A DNA stretch of 64,000 nucleotides from an uncultured Erythrobacter sp. Its GTDB lineage: Bacteria > Pseudomonadota > Alphaproteobacteria > Sphingomonadales > Sphingomonadaceae. The stretch is from NCBI GenBank assembly GCA_947501005.1, contig CANMTU010000001.1, forward strand, positions 248,001-312,000, written 5' to 3'. A model generated the notes under the pieces. The model was not told the DNA's origin. It saw only the letters and a list, made by a program, of their open reading frames with translations, and did no database searches. Each line of letters begins with the position of its first letter. The stretch's first letter is position 1. Below are positions 24,901-30,615 of the stretch, in pieces. Both the position numbers and the translations under genes were made by a program.

Positions 24901-25104
24901 ATGATTCACCGTTCGCACCTCGCCTTGGCGGCAACCCTCGTTCTTGCCGGATGCGGTACGCCGCCCGAACAGCAGCGGGTCGATCCCGCGAGCGAAGAAG
25001 AGGCACAGGCGCTCGAGGCTGCCGCGTCCATGCTGGATGCCGGCGAGATGCCCGCGGCGGACGCGCCCGTTCCAGACAACCAGACATCGGGAGAAACACG
25101 ATGA
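24901..25104 (+). CDS. Small lipoprotein coupled to the acyl-CoA operon
   Basis: A 67-residue protein with signal peptide MIHRSHLALAATLVLAGC and the lipobox Cys at 18, then a short Glu/Ala-rich tail. It matches no family I know. Its TGA overlaps the ATG of the acyl-CoA dehydrogenase gene as ATGA, a classic coupling arrangement, so translation of the operon may depend on it. The tail predicts disorder with perhaps one helix (SEEEAQALEAAASML). There is no strong ribosome site ahead of the ATG. Confidence 0.68.
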   Translation: MIHRSHLALAATLVLAGCGTPPEQQRVDPASEEEAQALEAAASMLDAGEMPAADAPVPDNQTSGETR

Positions 25105-26294
25105 GCGATGCACCCGCCGCCGCCAATCCGGGTATGGACCCGGACGTTTTCGAACAGTTCCACGAGCAGCTCGAACGCTATGTCCGCGAACGGCTCCTGC
25201 CGGCGGAAAAGGACGTCATCGAGAACGACCGCATTCCCGAGGAGATTGTCGAGGAAATGAAGGAGATGGGGCTGTTCGGCCTCTCCGTTCCCGAAGATCA
25301 CGGCGGGGCGGGCCTCAACATGACGCAATATGCCAAGATCGTGAAGACGATGGCCTATGCCGCGCCCGCCTATCGCTCGATCTTCTCAATCAATATCGGC
25401 ATGTTCAATTCCGCGCTGAAGAACGGCGGCACCAAGGCGCAGCAGGAGGAATGGTGGCCGCGCATCGCGGGCGGCGAGATCGCCTGCTTCGGCCTTACCG
25501 AACCCGGCTCGGGCAGCGACAGTGCGGCGATGCAGACCACCGCCCGCCCCGATCCCGATGGCAATGGCTGGATCCTCAACGGCTCCAAGCGCTACATCAC
25601 CAATGCGCCCCATGCCGATGTCGCGCTGATCATGGCGCGCACGGAGAAGGAGGCGCAGCCCAAAAACGCGCATGTCTCCGCCTTCATTGTGCCGATGGAC
25701 ACGCCGGGCGTGTCGGTCGGCAGTTCGGACAAGAAGATGGGGCAGGCGGGTAGCCATATCGCCGACGTCATGCTCGACGATGTGCATGTGCCGGGCGATG
25801 CGCTGCTCGGCGGGGAGACCGGCAAGGGCTTCCGCTTCGCCATGATGAGCCTCGACAACGGGCGCATCTCGGTCGGCGCGGCGAGCACCGGCTATGCCCG
25901 CCGCGCGCTCGATTCCGCCCTACGCTACGCTAATGAGCGGCAGGCGTTCGGCGAACCGATCTCCAGCTTCCAGCTGATCCAGCAAATGCTCGCCGAAAGC
26001 GAGACCGAGATCTACGCCGCCGAATGCATGATGGCGGACGTGACCGCGCGCGCCGACCGGGGCGAGAACACGATCCGTCAGGCCGCCGCCTTCAAGGTCT
26101 TCGCATCCGAGATGTGCGGCCGGGTGGTCGACCGGGTGGTGCAGATCTATGGCGGCGCGGGCTATCTTGCCGAATACGATGCCGAGCGGTTCTTCCGCGA
26201 TGCGCGTATCTATCGCATCTACGAAGGGACGACGCAGATCCTGCAATTGCAGATCGCCAAGCACATGCTGCGCGAATACGCAGGTCAGGTATAA
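25101..26294 (+). CDS. Acyl-CoA dehydrogenase
   Basis: A 397-residue FAD-dependent acyl-CoA dehydrogenase that puts a 2,3-double bond into a CoA thioester and passes electrons to ETF. Motifs: GLFGLSVPEDHGGAGL (N-terminal helices), CFGLTEPGSGSDSA (flavin and substrate loop), NGSKRYITNA, and at the C-terminus QIYGGAGYLAEYDAERFFRDAR and IYEGTTQILQLQIAK, where the glutamate in YEGT is the position of the catalytic base in short-chain enzymes. Length is standard. Substrate is not obvious; context with a methylfumaryl-CoA-isomerase-like protein, thiolase and hydratase suggests a branched or dicarboxylic acyl-CoA. Confidence 0.93.
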   Translation: MSDAPAAANPGMDPDVFEQFHEQLERYVRERLLPAEKDVIENDRIPEEIVEEMKEMGLFGLSVPEDHGGAGLNMTQYAKIVKTMAYAAPAYRSIFSINIGMFNSALKNGGTKAQQEEWWPRIAGGEIACFGLTEPGSGSDSAAMQTTARPDPDGNGWILNGSKRYITNAPHADVALIMARTEKEAQPKNAHVSAFIVPMDTPGVSVGSSDKKMGQAGSHIADVMLDDVHVPGDALLGGETGKGFRFAMMSLDNGRISVGAASTGYARRALDSALRYANERQAFGEPISSFQLIQQMLAESETEIYAAECMMADVTARADRGENTIRQAAAFKVFASEMCGRVVDRVVQIYGGAGYLAEYDAERFFRDARIYRIYEGTTQILQLQIAKHMLREYAGQV

Positions 26295-26295
26295 G

Positions 26296-27534
26296 GTGTA
26301 CGACCTGCTCGGCGACCTTTCGATCATCGAGGCGTCGAGCTTCGTCGCCTCGCCCACGGCGGGGCTGTATTGCGCGCAGATGGGTGCGGAGGTCATCCGG
26401 GTCGATCACAAGGAAGGCGGGCTCGATTACGATCGCTATCTGCTGACCTCCGAAGGCCGCTCGCTCGCGTGGGAGAACCTCAACCGGGCGAAGAAGTCCG
26501 TCGCGCTCGACCTGCGCAGCGGGGAAGGGCGGGAATTGCTGGTCGAACTGAGTGCGCGGACCGGCAATCTGATCACCAATCTGCCGGAAAAGAGTTTCCT
26601 ATCGCATGAGGCGGTTGCTGCACGGCGTCCCGACCTCGTCAGCGTGCGGATCATGGGCTGGCACGATGGGCGCCAGGCGATGGACTTCACCGTCAACGCG
26701 GCCAGCGGCTATCCCCTGATGTGCGGGCCGGAGGAGTGGGACACGGACACCGCCCCACCGGTCAACCAGGTGCTGCCGGCGTGGGACTTCATCACCGGTG
26801 CCTATTGCGCCTTCGCCCTGCTCGCTGCCCTGCGCCACCGCGAGCGGACGGGCGAGGGTAGCGAAGTGCGGGTGCCGCTGGGCGATGTCGCGATCGGCAC
26901 GCTGGCGAATAGCGGGGCGATGGCAGAAATGCTCTATCGCGGCGGGAATCGCGAACGACTGGGCAATGCGATCTGGGGCGCGTTCGGGCGCGATTTTCGC
27001 AGCCGTGACGGGGTGCGCTTCATGGTCGCCGCGTTGACCGAAAAGCAATGGACGGGGCTGGTTCGAGCCTTCGCGGCCGAGGACCGGATCGCCGCCCTCG
27101 AACAGGACCTCGGCGTGCGCTTCGCCGATGGCGACCGCCCGCGCTTCGAGCATCGCCATGCCCTGTTCGCCTTGTTCCAAGGCGCAGCCGAAGCGCGCGA
27201 TTGGAACGACCTTGCCGCCGCGATGGCGGCGCAAGGTTGCACCTTCGAACGCTACCGCACCGCCCACGAAGCCGCGAACGACCCCGTGCTGGTCGGTGAC
27301 AATCCGCTGTTCGCCGAAACGCGCGACAACCCCAGCGGCTTCGCCTACCCCGCGCCGCGTAGCTTCGCCAACATTCCCGAACGCGCGGCAGCAGCGCCGA
27401 AGCCCGCGCCATTCTTGGGCCAGCACACCGAGGAAATCCTCGCCGAGCGTCTCGGCCTCTCTTCCACCGCGATCGGCAAGCTGGTCGACCGCGATATTGC
27501 CCGCTGCTCCGACAAGGACCGAAACTATGCCTGA
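26296..27534 (+). CDS. Class III CoA-transferase family protein resembling 2-methylfumaryl-CoA isomerase (Mct)
   Basis: A 412-residue CaiB/BaiF-type protein. GTG 26296 is one base after the dehydrogenase TAA. As I remember the Chloroflexus mesaconyl-CoA C1-C4 transferase, many segments agree: SSFVASPTAGL near the start, GGLDYDRY, FTVNAASGYPLMCGP, QVLPAWDFITGAYCA, TGEGSEVRVPLGDVA and GAFGRDF. The catalytic aspartate of the superfamily should be D164 in PAWDFITG. If the assignment is right, it moves CoA within one molecule, from the C1 to the C4 carboxyl of mesaconate; an ordinary intermolecular CoA-transferase remains possible. It overlaps the next gene by 8 bases. Confidence 0.72.
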   Translation: MYDLLGDLSIIEASSFVASPTAGLYCAQMGAEVIRVDHKEGGLDYDRYLLTSEGRSLAWENLNRAKKSVALDLRSGEGRELLVELSARTGNLITNLPEKSFLSHEAVAARRPDLVSVRIMGWHDGRQAMDFTVNAASGYPLMCGPEEWDTDTAPPVNQVLPAWDFITGAYCAFALLAALRHRERTGEGSEVRVPLGDVAIGTLANSGAMAEMLYRGGNRERLGNAIWGAFGRDFRSRDGVRFMVAALTEKQWTGLVRAFAAEDRIAALEQDLGVRFADGDRPRFEHRHALFALFQGAAEARDWNDLAAAMAAQGCTFERYRTAHEAANDPVLVGDNPLFAETRDNPSGFAYPAPRSFANIPERAAAAPKPAPFLGQHTEEILAERLGLSSTAIGKLVDRDIARCSDKDRNYA

Positions 27535-28759
27535 ACTCCGCCGCGTCGCCATCTGCAAGCCGCTCCGCACGCCCGTCGGCGCGTTCCTTGGAACGCTCGC
27601 CCCGCTCGAGGCCGGGGAACTCGGCGCGAAGATCATCACCGCCGTGATCGAGCGCAGCGGGCTCGATCCGGCGCGCGTCGACGATGTCGTGTTCAGCCAG
27701 GGCTACGGCAATGGCGAGGCCCCGGCCATCGGGCGGTGGAGCTGGCTCGCGGCAGGCTATCCGATCGAAGTGCCCGGCTATCAGCTTGACCGACGTTGCG
27801 GCTCGGGCCTGCAGGCGGTGGTCAACGCAGCGATGATGGTGCAGACCGGCGCTGCGGATTGCGTGCTGGCAGGCGGCGTCGAAAGCATGTCCAATGTCGA
27901 GCATTACACGACCAAGGCCCGCCACGGCGCGCGGCTCGGCGACATGGTGCTGTGGGACCGGCTGACGCGCGGGCGGCTGATGAGCCAGCCGATCGAGCGG
28001 TTCGGCGTGATCACCGGCATGATCGAGACGGCGGAAAACCTCGCCAAGGATTACGACATTTCGCGCGAGGCCGCCGATGCCTTCGCCGTGCGCAGCCACC
28101 AGAGCGCCGCCGCTGCATGGGACGCGGGCCGGTTCGACGAGCAGCTCGTGCCTGTGGAAATCCCGCAGCGGCGCGGCGATCCGGTGGTGTTCGCGAAAGA
28201 CGAAGGCTTCCGCGCCGATGCGAGCATGGAGACACTGGGCGGCCTTCGCGCGATCGACGGCAAGCGCGACAAGGACGCCATCGTCACCGCCGGCAATGCC
28301 AGCCAGCAGAACGATGCCGCCGCCGCCTGCCTCGTGGTGGCGGAAGACAAGGTCGAAGAACTCGGCCTCGAACCGATCCTGTGGTTCCATTCGTGGAGCG
28401 CGGCGGGCTGCGATCCGTCGCGCATGGGCATCGGCCCGGTCCCGGCGGTGGAGCGGTTGTTCGCCCGTAGCGGCCTTGGCTGGGACGATATCGGCCTTAT
28501 CGAACTCAACGAGGCTTTCGCCCCGCAGGCGCTCGCCGTGATGAAGGGCTGGGGTTTTGCCGAGGACGACAGCCGGCGCGATATCGTCAACGTCAACGGG
28601 TCAGGGATTTCGCTCGGCCATCCCATCGGCGCGACCGGCATCCGCATTCTTGCCGACATGGCGCATGAAATGCAGCGGCGCGAGGCGCGTTATGGCCTGG
28701 AAACCATGTGCATCGGCGGTGGGCAGGGCATGGCTGCGGTGTTCGAGCGCGCGGCGTGA
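27527..28759 (+). CDS. Thiolase (acetyl-CoA acyltransferase family)
   Basis: A 410-residue thiolase. The nucleophilic cysteine is in LDRRCGSGLQAV near residue 91, the His in the NEAFAPQA region and GHPIGATGIRI, and the second Cys in CIGGGQGMAAVF. It either cleaves a 3-ketoacyl-CoA to acetyl-CoA plus a shortened acyl-CoA or condenses two acyl-CoAs; the preference cannot be read. ATG 27527 overlaps the preceding stop by eight bases and its TGA overlaps the GTG of the hydratase gene, so it is embedded in a tight operon. Confidence 0.93.
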   Translation: MPELRRVAICKPLRTPVGAFLGTLAPLEAGELGAKIITAVIERSGLDPARVDDVVFSQGYGNGEAPAIGRWSWLAAGYPIEVPGYQLDRRCGSGLQAVVNAAMMVQTGAADCVLAGGVESMSNVEHYTTKARHGARLGDMVLWDRLTRGRLMSQPIERFGVITGMIETAENLAKDYDISREAADAFAVRSHQSAAAAWDAGRFDEQLVPVEIPQRRGDPVVFAKDEGFRADASMETLGGLRAIDGKRDKDAIVTAGNASQQNDAAAACLVVAEDKVEELGLEPILWFHSWSAAGCDPSRMGIGPVPAVERLFARSGLGWDDIGLIELNEAFAPQALAVMKGWGFAEDDSRRDIVNVNGSGISLGHPIGATGIRILADMAHEMQRREARYGLETMCIGGGQGMAAVFERAA

Positions 28760-29610
28760 GCGATTGGCAGGCGTGGGTCGGGCGCGAACAGCGCGCCGCC
28801 GACCGGCTCGACCCGGCGCTTGCCGTCCGCTGGTGCGCGACGTTCGACCGCGATGCGCCGGCGGGCGCGGCGATGCCGCAGGGGATCCACTTCTGCCTCT
28901 GCACGCCCGAAGCGCGCACCGCGCAATTGGGGACGGACGGGCATCCGATCCGGGACGACAGCGCGGCAAGCTTCCTGCCGCCGATCCCCCTGCCGCGCCG
29001 GATGTGGGCGGGCAGCGACATCCGCTTCCACGCCCCCCTCGCCATCGGCGCGACGATCGAGCGCATCAGCCGGATCGCCGCGATCACGCCCAAATCGGGC
29101 AGCAGGGGCGACATGGTGTTCGTCGCGATCGAACACGAAACCCATGCCGACGGAACGCTGGCGGTGCGTGAGACGCAAGACCTCGTCTTCCTCGATGCGG
29201 TGGCGCCCGATGCCGCGCTCTCGCCGCCGGCTCCTGGCGAAGGCACGTTCGATCCATCGGCGTGGGACGAGCATCGCACGGTCCATCCCGCCGAGCCGCT
29301 GCTGTTCCGCTACTCCGCATTGACCTTCAACAGCCACCGCATCCATTACGACCGGCCCTATGCGCGCGAGGTCGAGCGGTATCGCGGACTGGTCGTCCAC
29401 GGCCCGCTCACCGCGAGCCTGCTGCTGCAACTGGCGGCCCGGACCCATGGCGAGAACCGCCTTGCCCAATTCCGCTTCCGCGGCCTCAGCCCCGCCATCG
29501 CGGGCGAGCCGCTCAACCTCGTGATGCGCGCGGCCGACGGCGCATTGGAACTCGCCGCCTTCGCGGGCGACGGGCGCAATGTTACCCAGGCAAGCGCCGT
29601 TCTTCGTTGA
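28756..29610 (+). CDS. MaoC-like / FAS1-type dehydratase, candidate mesaconyl-C4-CoA hydratase
   Basis: A 284-residue double-hotdog protein. The N-terminal half is the FAS1-like dehydratase fold (PLPRRMWAGSDIRFHAPL). The C-terminal half has the hydratase motif TFNSHRIHYDRPYA and then YRGLVVHGPLTASLL. Such proteins hydrate enoyl-CoAs or dehydrate 3-hydroxyacyl-CoAs; the mesaconyl-C4-CoA hydratase of the 3-hydroxypropionate bicycle is a member of this fold group, which fits the neighbouring Mct-like gene. GTG 28756 overlaps the thiolase stop (GTGA); an in-frame ATG upstream would lie deep within the thiolase gene. It ends the operon. Confidence 0.82.
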   Translation: MSDWQAWVGREQRAADRLDPALAVRWCATFDRDAPAGAAMPQGIHFCLCTPEARTAQLGTDGHPIRDDSAASFLPPIPLPRRMWAGSDIRFHAPLAIGATIERISRIAAITPKSGSRGDMVFVAIEHETHADGTLAVRETQDLVFLDAVAPDAALSPPAPGEGTFDPSAWDEHRTVHPAEPLLFRYSALTFNSHRIHYDRPYAREVERYRGLVVHGPLTASLLLQLAARTHGENRLAQFRFRGLSPAIAGEPLNLVMRAADGALELAAFAGDGRNVTQASAVLR

Positions 29611-29676: not shown

Positions 29677-30615
29677 ATGGCTACACTTGCAGAACCGCAG
29701 ACCGACTTCACCCGCCTTCCGGACATGGACGAGAGCGTCTTCACCGCGCCTCTCAAAAAGCCGGATCGTGTCGGCGACGACTGGCTCGAACCCAAACAGA
29801 CCGAATACGATAGCGAGGACGATGCGATCTGGAACGACCTGTTCGCGCGCCAGATGGAGGTCCTGCCCGGCCGCGCGGCGAGCGCGTTCATGCACGGGCT
29901 CGAGAAGCTCGATCTCGGCAAGGGCGGGGTGCCCGATTTCGGCGAGCTCAGCGAAAACCTTGGCCAGCTGACCGGGTGGAGCGTGGTGCCGGTGCCCATG
30001 CTGATCCCCGATCACGTCTTCTTCTGGCACCTCGCCAATCGCCGGTTCCCGGCCGGAAATTTCATCCGCACGCGCGAGACCTTCGACTATATTCAGGAGC
30101 CCGATGTCTTCCATGACGTGTTCGGCCATGTGCCGATGCTGACCGATCCGACCTATGCCGACTATATGGCGGAATACGGCAAGGCCGGGTGGAAGGCGAT
30201 GCGCTACAACCGGCTGAAGGCGCTCGGCGCGCTCTACTGGTACACGGTCGAATTCGGCCTGCTGCGCGAGCAGGACGAGATCCGCGCCTACGGGGCGGGG
30301 ATCCTCTCCGGCCCGACCGAAGTGGTCTACGCGACCGAGGCGGAAAGCCCCAACCGGATCATGCTGAACGTCGATCGGGTCATGCGCACCGATTATGTCA
30401 TCAGCGATCTGCAGCCGACCTATTTCGTGATCGAAAGCTTCGAGGACCTGTTCCGCCAGACGGTGGAGCGGGACTTCGACAAGCTCTACCGCAATCTCGG
30501 CCCGGGCTTCACCTATGCCAATACGGCGGTGATCGATGTCGACCATGTGGTGAACCGCGGCACGCTGGAATACACGCTGCGCGGCGGGCGGGGCAGCGGG
30601 GCCGATCCGGTCTGA
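29677..30615 (+). CDS. phhA: Phenylalanine 4-monooxygenase
   Basis: A 312-residue pterin-dependent, non-haem iron hydroxylase turning phenylalanine into tyrosine. The iron ligands are visible: two His in PDVFHDVFGHVPML and a Glu in LYWYTVEFGLL. The pterin and substrate regions are in the usual positions (RRFPAGNFIRTR). It is longer at the N-terminus than the minimal Chromobacterium enzyme and lacks the regulatory ACT domain of the animal enzyme. ATG 29677 is chosen; a TTG at 29641 is also in frame. The pterin recycling enzyme gene phhB is not adjacent. Its link to the preceding acyl-CoA operon is unclear. Confidence 0.95.
   Translation: MATLAEPQTDFTRLPDMDESVFTAPLKKPDRVGDDWLEPKQTEYDSEDDAIWNDLFARQMEVLPGRAASAFMHGLEKLDLGKGGVPDFGELSENLGQLTGWSVVPVPMLIPDHVFFWHLANRRFPAGNFIRTRETFDYIQEPDVFHDVFGHVPMLTDPTYADYMAEYGKAGWKAMRYNRLKALGALYWYTVEFGLLREQDEIRAYGAGILSGPTEVVYATEAESPNRIMLNVDRVMRTDYVISDLQPTYFVIESFEDLFRQTVERDFDKLYRNLGPGFTYANTAVIDVDHVVNRGTLEYTLRGGRGSGADPV

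Follow-up and report, generated by a model that had tools for sequence, protein, structure and literature searches.

An Mct-type CoA transferase operon in an Erythrobacter genome: a possible module for the catabolism of methyl-branched dicarboxylyl-CoA

What might an operon do that joins a relative of a photoautotroph's mesaconyl-CoA transferase to a thiolase? The question arises from a 64,000-nucleotide stretch of DNA of an uncultured Erythrobacter sp. (the window; assembly GCA_947501005.1, contig CANMTU010000001.1, positions 248,001 to 312,000), in which four forward-strand genes at 25101-29610 lie one base apart or overlap. They encode an acyl-CoA dehydrogenase that resembles the short-chain enzymes (P0001; 397 amino acids, 25101-26294, domain Acyl-CoA_dh), a family III CoA transferase of the Mct type, that is, of the 2-methylfumaryl-CoA isomerase branch (P0002; 412 amino acids, GTG start, 26296-27534, CoA_transf_3 at 200 bits), a thiolase of the PRK06205 group (P0003; 410 amino acids, 27527-28759, Thiolase_N/C) and a FAS1-DH/MaoC hydratase of the itaconyl-CoA/mesaconyl-C4-CoA hydratase kind (P0004; 284 amino acids, GTG start, 28756-29610). 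P0002 starts one base past the stop of P0001, P0003 overlaps P0002 by 8 bases and P0004 overlaps P0003 by 4 bases. All four genes are present and in frame. An initial annotation had described this compact operon, and its coordinates, frames and domains are all confirmed, as is its remark that no mcl (malyl/citramalyl-CoA lyase) or mch (mesaconyl-C1-CoA hydratase) gene lies inside the cluster. We propose, giving the idea an even chance, that these genes belong to an aerobic catabolic module for a methyl-branched C5 dicarboxylyl-CoA, namely methylsuccinyl-CoA.

The resemblance of P0002 to 2-methylfumaryl-CoA isomerase, claimed in the initial annotation, is far above chance. A phmmer search returned the Mct enzymes of Chloroflexus (8apq, E 3.5e-86) and Roseiflexus (7xkg, 1.7e-85), with the next sequence at 3.4e-21, and P0002 is about 41% identical to these characterised mesaconyl-CoA C1-C4 transferases. 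The best NCBIfam model was 2-methylfumaryl-CoA isomerase with 314.6 bits, then succinate-glutarate CoA-transferase with 104 bits. In a maximum-likelihood tree of 67 hand-chosen rows, for which the program warned of long branches (the outgroup, L158, L168, L173 and L177), P0002 and both Mct structures fell into one clade of 63 rows, from which four other CoA transferases split off with support of 100/100. The P0002 copy used for the tree and for the BLAST identities carried eight gap characters; MAFFT strips them, and the identities may shift slightly. A Foldseek search with the predicted structure (mean pLDDT 82.7, pTM 0.79) gave E values of about 1e-38 for the Mct structures and about 1e-24 for the next. 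Judged by its sequence, P0002 is a member of the Mct branch, apart from the formyl- and succinyl-CoA-dependent transferases. The initial annotation had asked with which of these groups the protein would cluster in a phylogeny; it groups with Mct and not with the others, and because it lies in the Mct branch, the annotation survives the sequence half of its own challenge.

Several active-site residues of Mct are retained. We aligned 131 family rows, in which the window protein is counted twice, with five outgroup rows. Arg47, Asn100, Asp135 and Asp165 (CaMct numbering) are invariant across the family, and Arg47 is found in none of the outgroup rows, one of which is gapped there. At position 43, where P0002 carries Leu, the 131 family rows show Leu or Ile in 86 cases and Pro in 39. 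In CaMct, Arg47 and Leu43 have been associated with a closed, intramolecular transfer, with Leu or Ile in the latter place constricting the mouth of the active site (PMC9813914). CaMct is the nearest characterised relative of P0002 by sequence, tree and fold, and the two share the family III fold together with Asp165, Arg47, Leu43, Asn100 and Asp135. By alignment, the codon for Arg47 of P0002, which is also Arg47 of CaMct, lies at 26434-26436 on the forward strand, and that for the catalytic Asp164, equivalent to Asp165, at 26785-26787. Position 136 is variable (Phe in 69 rows, Tyr in 61 and Pro in one). Tyr136 of CaMct is reported to bind the free carboxylate (PMC9813914, PMC9196870), and at this site P0002 has Phe131, encoded at 26686-26688. 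We considered a Tyr/Phe switch tied to a nearby gene for methylsuccinyl-CoA dehydrogenase (Mcd) and rejected it, since some Phe members adjoin Mcd.

The other three products were compared with known families. P0003 exceeded the curated cut-off of PRK06205, acetyl-CoA acetyltransferase (681.8 versus 551 bits). P0004 matched itaconyl-CoA hydratase 8khg over its full length (E 6e-52) and reached 30.3 bits with FAS1_DH_region (cut-off 22); its MaoC match stayed under that model's own cut-off, and no NCBIfam model matched it at E<=0.001. Its motif FNSHRIHYD is common to nine linked hydratases. The protein is thus of the itaconyl-CoA/mesaconyl-C4-CoA hydratase (Ich/Meh) kind, in line with the fold group named in the initial annotation; it is closest to Ich, with full-length similarity to 8khg and a shared active-site motif, and its substrate is a prediction. 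P0001 retains the catalytic Glu. It lacks the hallmarks of Mcd, which are three arginines, a pocket for the methyl group with Ala285 and Phe287, and an N-terminal extension (PMC5798300). On these residues, we rejected the possibility that P0001 is a classical Mcd. Aligned by eye, an Arg in helix E of P0001 (AYRS) stands at what we take to be the place of the carboxylate-binding Arg of glutaryl-CoA dehydrogenase.

The genes that accompany the transferase in relatives point to a pathway. Of 296 genomes from the window's order, 118 carry the Mct-type gene (E<=1e-60), as do 28 of 398 sampled across the phylum (E<=1e-80); both counts include the window genome. Among 100 relative loci (L037-L136), which may include one genome twice, 79 had at least 7.5 kb on both sides, and at these we counted partners within about 8 kb at identity thresholds of our own choosing (transferase 44%, Mcd 55%, the other dehydrogenase kind ACAD2 58%, thiolase 60%, dehydrogenase 60%, SDR 55% and MaoC 35%). 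A thiolase was present at 74 loci, a dehydrogenase at 65, a MaoC hydratase at 53 and an SDR at 18. The cluster SDR resembles (3R)-hydroxyacyl-CoA dehydrogenases (2et6, E 5e-109). Mcd alone was found at 15 loci, ACAD2 alone at 8, both at 3 and neither at 53. The linked Mcd is close to 6es9 (E 3e-173, 580 bits), a structure whose PDB row names it acyl-CoA dehydrogenase only and which we take to be the Paracoccus Mcd because PMC5798300 cites the code and its residue numbers fit. Besides the query copy, we checked 11 residues in ten linked 6es9-type copies, all of which keep all 11, and in three other Mcd copies that look by eye nearer 8ciw, which differ at three.

Across the 296 genomes of the order, Mcd occurred in 88 (E<=1e-90), and 64 of these also had the Mct-type gene, a co-occurrence with an odds ratio of 7.6 (p 8e-14) that is uncorrected for shared ancestry. 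Mcd lay within 20 kb of the Mct-type gene in 35 of the 64, and within 3.2 kb in 33 of those. Crotonyl-CoA carboxylase/reductase (Ccr) was looked for in 72 of the 88 Mcd genomes: none of the 63 from the window's family had it, and all nine from other families did, always within 0.5 kb of Mcd. Because Ccr is missing from all 63 genomes, Mcd in this family appears to work outside the ethylmalonyl-CoA pathway. The same Mcd kind as in that pathway (6es9) is linked to the Mct-type gene in relatives without Ccr, and the window genome is without Mcd.

Similar arrangements occur on plasmids, of which 1025 records matched and 30 places were listed; we examined 14. Eight of these had an Mcd-type gene nearby; compared with the L043 copy, six were 61-80% identical and two 43%. 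On pSHV1 of Sphingobium herbicidovorans, the transferase, Mcd, MaoC hydratase and a citrate-lyase-family gene follow one another, and the S. paeninsulae cluster comprises SDR, thiolase, dehydrogenase, transferase, Mcd and hydratase. The transferase stands with Mcd on pCADAB1 and on Ancylobacter and Azospirillum plasmids, and a Comamonadaceae plasmid has thiolase-transferase-hydratase. On plasmids of Paraburkholderia and Pseudorhizobium, its neighbours include a hydratase and a CoA ester lyase. The initial annotation had offered a route from methylsuccinyl-CoA through mesaconyl-C1-CoA and mesaconyl-C4-CoA to citramalyl-CoA, in which the thiolase had no place. The relatives with Mcd, one plasmid of which also carries the lyase, bear out the order of that route, but the objection about the thiolase is not supported, as this gene is the most constant partner of all and fits one step upstream.

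ACAD2 could supply the dehydrogenation where Mcd is lacking. Its relatives on Aminobacter and Mesorhizobium plasmids lie in MmgE-dehydrogenase-transferase-MaoC hydratase-lyase clusters, and a cluster of that layout has been shown to break down methylsuccinate by means of a dehydrogenase that acts specifically on the C4 ester (PMC12290011). From this layout, ACAD2 is probably of the methylsuccinyl-C4-CoA dehydrogenase kind. The window genome holds one ACAD2, at 1.277 Mb, 69% identical to the L054 copy.

Some loci differ from this pattern. Three of them, L157 (pAKD34), L160 (a Variovorax SRS16 plasmid) and L170, pair the Mct-type gene with a second Mcd-like dehydrogenase kind, 42-43% identical to the L043 copy and by eye nearer 8ciw than 6es9. 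L048, a Novosphingobium-type Mct cluster, has close to it genes that by eye resemble those of a meta-cleavage hydrolase, a hydratase and an aldolase of the HpaI type, which hints at an aromatic source of methylsuccinate. In a family outside the window's class (L174, L180 and L181), the Mct-type gene, a MaoC hydratase and two CitE-type genes stand in a row, possibly a bicycle-like set.

A single chain would accommodate the recurring partners, which are a thiolase, Mcd or ACAD2, a Meh-kind hydratase and, at some loci, a lyase. The sequences themselves show what the genes are, where they fall in their families, which key residues they keep and that their linkage is conserved; from this we infer the reactions, the starting compound and, in the window genome, the fourth and sixth steps. 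P0001 would open a round of beta-oxidation on a methyl-branched C6 dicarboxylyl-CoA, for example 4-methyladipyl-CoA, which would be completed by a hydratase and a hydroxyacyl-CoA dehydrogenase from other parts of the genome. P0003 would then cleave methyl-3-oxoadipyl-CoA by thiolysis to acetyl-CoA and methylsuccinyl-CoA, with the CoA on C1, the carboxyl beside the methyl branch. In the third step, P0002 may shift the CoA intramolecularly from C1 to C4, via an anhydride and an aspartyl-CoA at Asp164, on methylsuccinyl-CoA or, if dehydrogenation comes first, on mesaconyl-CoA; either order would serve. A C4-type methylsuccinyl-CoA dehydrogenase, the one at 1.277 Mb, could form mesaconyl-C4-CoA, P0004 would hydrate this to citramalyl-CoA, and a CitE-like lyase encoded elsewhere might split citramalyl-CoA into pyruvate and acetyl-CoA. 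Work on Pseudomonas reinekei MT1 has reportedly described how thiolysis converts 4-methyl-3-oxoadipyl-CoA into methylsuccinyl-CoA and acetyl-CoA. Our literature search found no paper that joins methylsuccinyl-CoA with 4-methyl-3-oxoadipyl-CoA, or Sphingomonas with mesaconyl-CoA. Thiolysis followed by intramolecular CoA transfer has a precedent in ThnP and ThnO of anaerobic naphthalene degradation, in which dehydrogenation and then a tertiary alcohol follow; that system differs in being anaerobic, in its cyclic substrate and in that ThnP is a family I (Cat1) transferase (PMC11659651).

Several observations weigh against this proposal. It is weakest at the absent Mcd, the doubtful lyase, Phe in place of Tyr136 and the starting compound, which no gene names; the neighbouring phhA is part of another pathway. 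With its 314.6 bits, P0002 is below the equivalog cut-off of 725 of the Mct model TIGR04253, as were the other Mct-branch members scanned (five of five, at 349-605 bits). Besides Phe for Tyr136, it differs from CaMct in Gly for Arg314', Leu for Phe101 and Lys for Arg104 (position 314 is Gly in 116 of the 131 family rows and Arg in three), and its gene sits with a thiolase and a dehydrogenase, not with mch and mcl. TM-scores separate Mct (0.86-0.88) poorly from human SUGCT (0.83-0.85), and pLDDT drops below 50 at residues 140-146 and 154-160 of the model, close to the active site. P0001 lacks the Mcd substrate residues, we found no typical Mcd in the window genome, and ACAD2, which was assigned by cluster layout, lies 1 Mb from the operon. 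The 53 loci with neither Mcd nor ACAD2 nearby belong mainly to the window's clade, 29 of the 64 genomes that have both genes carry Mcd far from the Mct-type gene, and the test of their co-occurrence is uncorrected for shared ancestry. The best SDR match in the window genome is 44% identical over residues 6-205 of the 304 of the cluster SDR. Compared with cluster-linked lyases, its CitE-like lyase reached only 28-33% identity, and the gene adjoins mmsA and another transferase, the genome having three CoA_transf_3 proteins. The presence of this lyase gene is not specific, because homologues occur in 183 of the 296 genomes (E<=1e-60); a specific co-occurrence with the transferase was accordingly not shown.

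The Mct and Meh kinds are consecutive enzymes of the 3-hydroxypropionate bicycle, and the operon could be a fragment of it that co-assimilates glyoxylate, acetate and propionate, from beta-methylmalyl-CoA through mesaconyl-C1-CoA, mesaconyl-C4-CoA and citramalyl-CoA to pyruvate. Such genes have been annotated as bicycle genes in one sphingomonad genome (PMC9967899) and in marine genomes (PMC8139981), and Porphyrobacter and NAP1 are said to possess key bicycle enzymes (PMC10674011); the partial bicycle genes in Erythrobacter that the initial annotation mentioned are thus in print for NAP1, which carries the same operon (L067). We nevertheless consider a bicycle fragment very unlikely. The genome search for mcl that had been suggested returned a single HpcH/HpaI (PF03328) protein, which is CitE/RipC-like and scores 46.8 bits with the haloarchaeal malyl-CoA lyase model (cut-off 500). 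Matches to the mesaconyl-CoA hydratase family PF19315 pass its cut-off of 26.5 (49 and 37.7 bits) but are partial, covering only 149 and 132 of 353 positions, and the linked genes are dehydrogenases and a thiolase. With no Mcl-like match and partial Mch-family matches, a bicycle role is not supported; the search did not extend to malonyl-CoA reductase or propionyl-CoA synthase. It is distinctly unlikely, if somewhat less so, that P0002 acts intermolecularly, activating free methylsuccinate, mesaconate or itaconate with succinyl-CoA in an operon that degrades free acids. The model here is the pseudomonad itaconate/methylsuccinate cluster (msi, mcd, ict, ich, ccl; PMC12290011), whose Ict belongs to the same enzyme superfamily and which shares with the window operon the downstream hydratase kind and the expected products, pyruvate and acetyl-CoA; ACAD2, the dehydrogenase kind found in such clusters, is present in the window genome. 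That cluster has MmgE/PrpD and no thiolase, and its transferase is intermolecular, whereas the window operon has neither an Ict-type transferase nor an MmgE/PrpD gene. The transferases in the Ict place of the Aminobacter and Mesorhizobium plasmid clusters are of another branch, far from P0002 (67 and 75 bits, compared with 280 for CaMct), and the one from Aminobacter matches other models. P0002 also keeps the Arg47 and Leu43 linked in CaMct to closed intramolecular transfer (PMC9813914).

Another branched or longer dicarboxylyl-CoA, from isoprenoid, steroid or aromatic side chains, is an unlikely substrate, though less so than the foregoing alternatives. Here CoA transfer would restart beta-oxidation from the other end, and SDR, MaoC hydratase and thiolase would finish without citramalyl-CoA. 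The Phe for Tyr136 in the window's clade, the frequent thiolase, the occasional SDR and other catabolic genes around the transferase in Pseudonocardia and Variovorax favour this idea, but the repeated linkage with residue-intact Mcd and with citrate-lyase-family genes points to methylsuccinyl-CoA or mesaconyl-CoA. A hybrid ethylmalonyl-CoA route of acetate assimilation would give the thiolase (as the source of acetoacetyl-CoA) and the SDR a place, with Mct and Meh diverting mesaconyl-CoA to pyruvate; Mcd is an enzyme of the ethylmalonyl-CoA pathway, and G098, one of the nine Ccr genomes, holds an Mct-type gene, near a CitE-type gene, MaoC and ACAD2, on a different contig from its Ccr-Mcd pair. 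This explanation is almost certainly wrong for the window genome, in which the best Ccr match reached 86 bits against a cut-off of 378.55, and Ccr is likewise missing from the 63 Mcd genomes of its family. We rejected it, unless another carboxylase makes ethylmalonyl-CoA.

If the operon does serve methylsuccinyl-CoA catabolism, Mct and Meh relatives would have a function outside photoautotrophs, joining the breakdown of methyl-branched dicarboxylates to central metabolism with the CoA bond retained. Detection of mct and meh as markers in metagenomes need not then mean CO2 fixation, which may explain bicycle genes in bacteria not known to fix CO2. The authors of a deep-ocean survey were surprised to find mcl, mct and meh (PMC8139981), and a sphingomonad genome paper put meh and 2-methylfumaryl-CoA isomerase under carbon fixation (PMC9967899); the genes in question may belong to this family. 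The same catabolism would suggest an end route for the methyl carbon of MCPA-type herbicides. MCPA breakdown has been assigned to the tfd and pca genes of pCADAB1, the plasmid of an MCPA degrader that also carries a transferase-Mcd pair, and the scheme given there writes unmethylated 3-oxoadipate (PMC3877037); the route should leave a methylated 3-oxoadipate, hence a methylsuccinyl-CoA. In a literature search from which subscription journals were mostly missing, we found no publication that places the Mct-type enzymes of heterotrophic Proteobacteria in a catabolic route linked to a thiolase.

A wider reading, which we advance tentatively and think somewhat more doubtful than the module itself, is that Mct-type intramolecular transferases are mainly a widespread catabolic family of Proteobacteria and not a speciality of the bicycle. 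The family would act in a hitherto undescribed aerobic route that takes methyl-branched C6 dicarboxylates, which isoprenoid side chains or methylated aromatics could yield, through thiolysis to methylsuccinyl-C1-CoA and on to pyruvate and acetyl-CoA. The window's clade would carry out the transfer on saturated methylsuccinyl-CoA, so that a C4-type dehydrogenase could replace Mcd, and the Mct of the bicycle would have been recruited from this family. In the tree rooted on the outgroup, whose branch is long, the bicycle enzymes lie among proteobacterial rows, beside six that belong to the window's class but to other families (97/90).

The surroundings of the operon recur in part. A scan for promoters and terminators gave no signal above chance. 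Immediately upstream, a small predicted lipoprotein of 67 amino acids is encoded at 24901-25104 on the forward strand, its stop overlapping the start of the first operon gene (ATGA). Among the relative loci, 78 extend 500 bases or more beyond the upstream end of the operon, and in 44 of them an open reading frame with a lipobox, identified by a crude pattern, directly precedes it. The short upstream lipoprotein genes of many relatives share, by eye, the pattern EAxALxxAAxM, and a Q. citrea plasmid has an 88-amino-acid hypothetical gene at the same place. Downstream, the next gene is phhA (phenylalanine 4-hydroxylase, 29677-30615), named from the matching Q. citrea plasmid, and a phhA-like gene is present in 51 of the 100 relative loci. 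The ACAD2 of the window genome adjoins an hppD-like gene (4-hydroxyphenylpyruvate dioxygenase by eye), which, like phhA, belongs to the tyrosine pathway.

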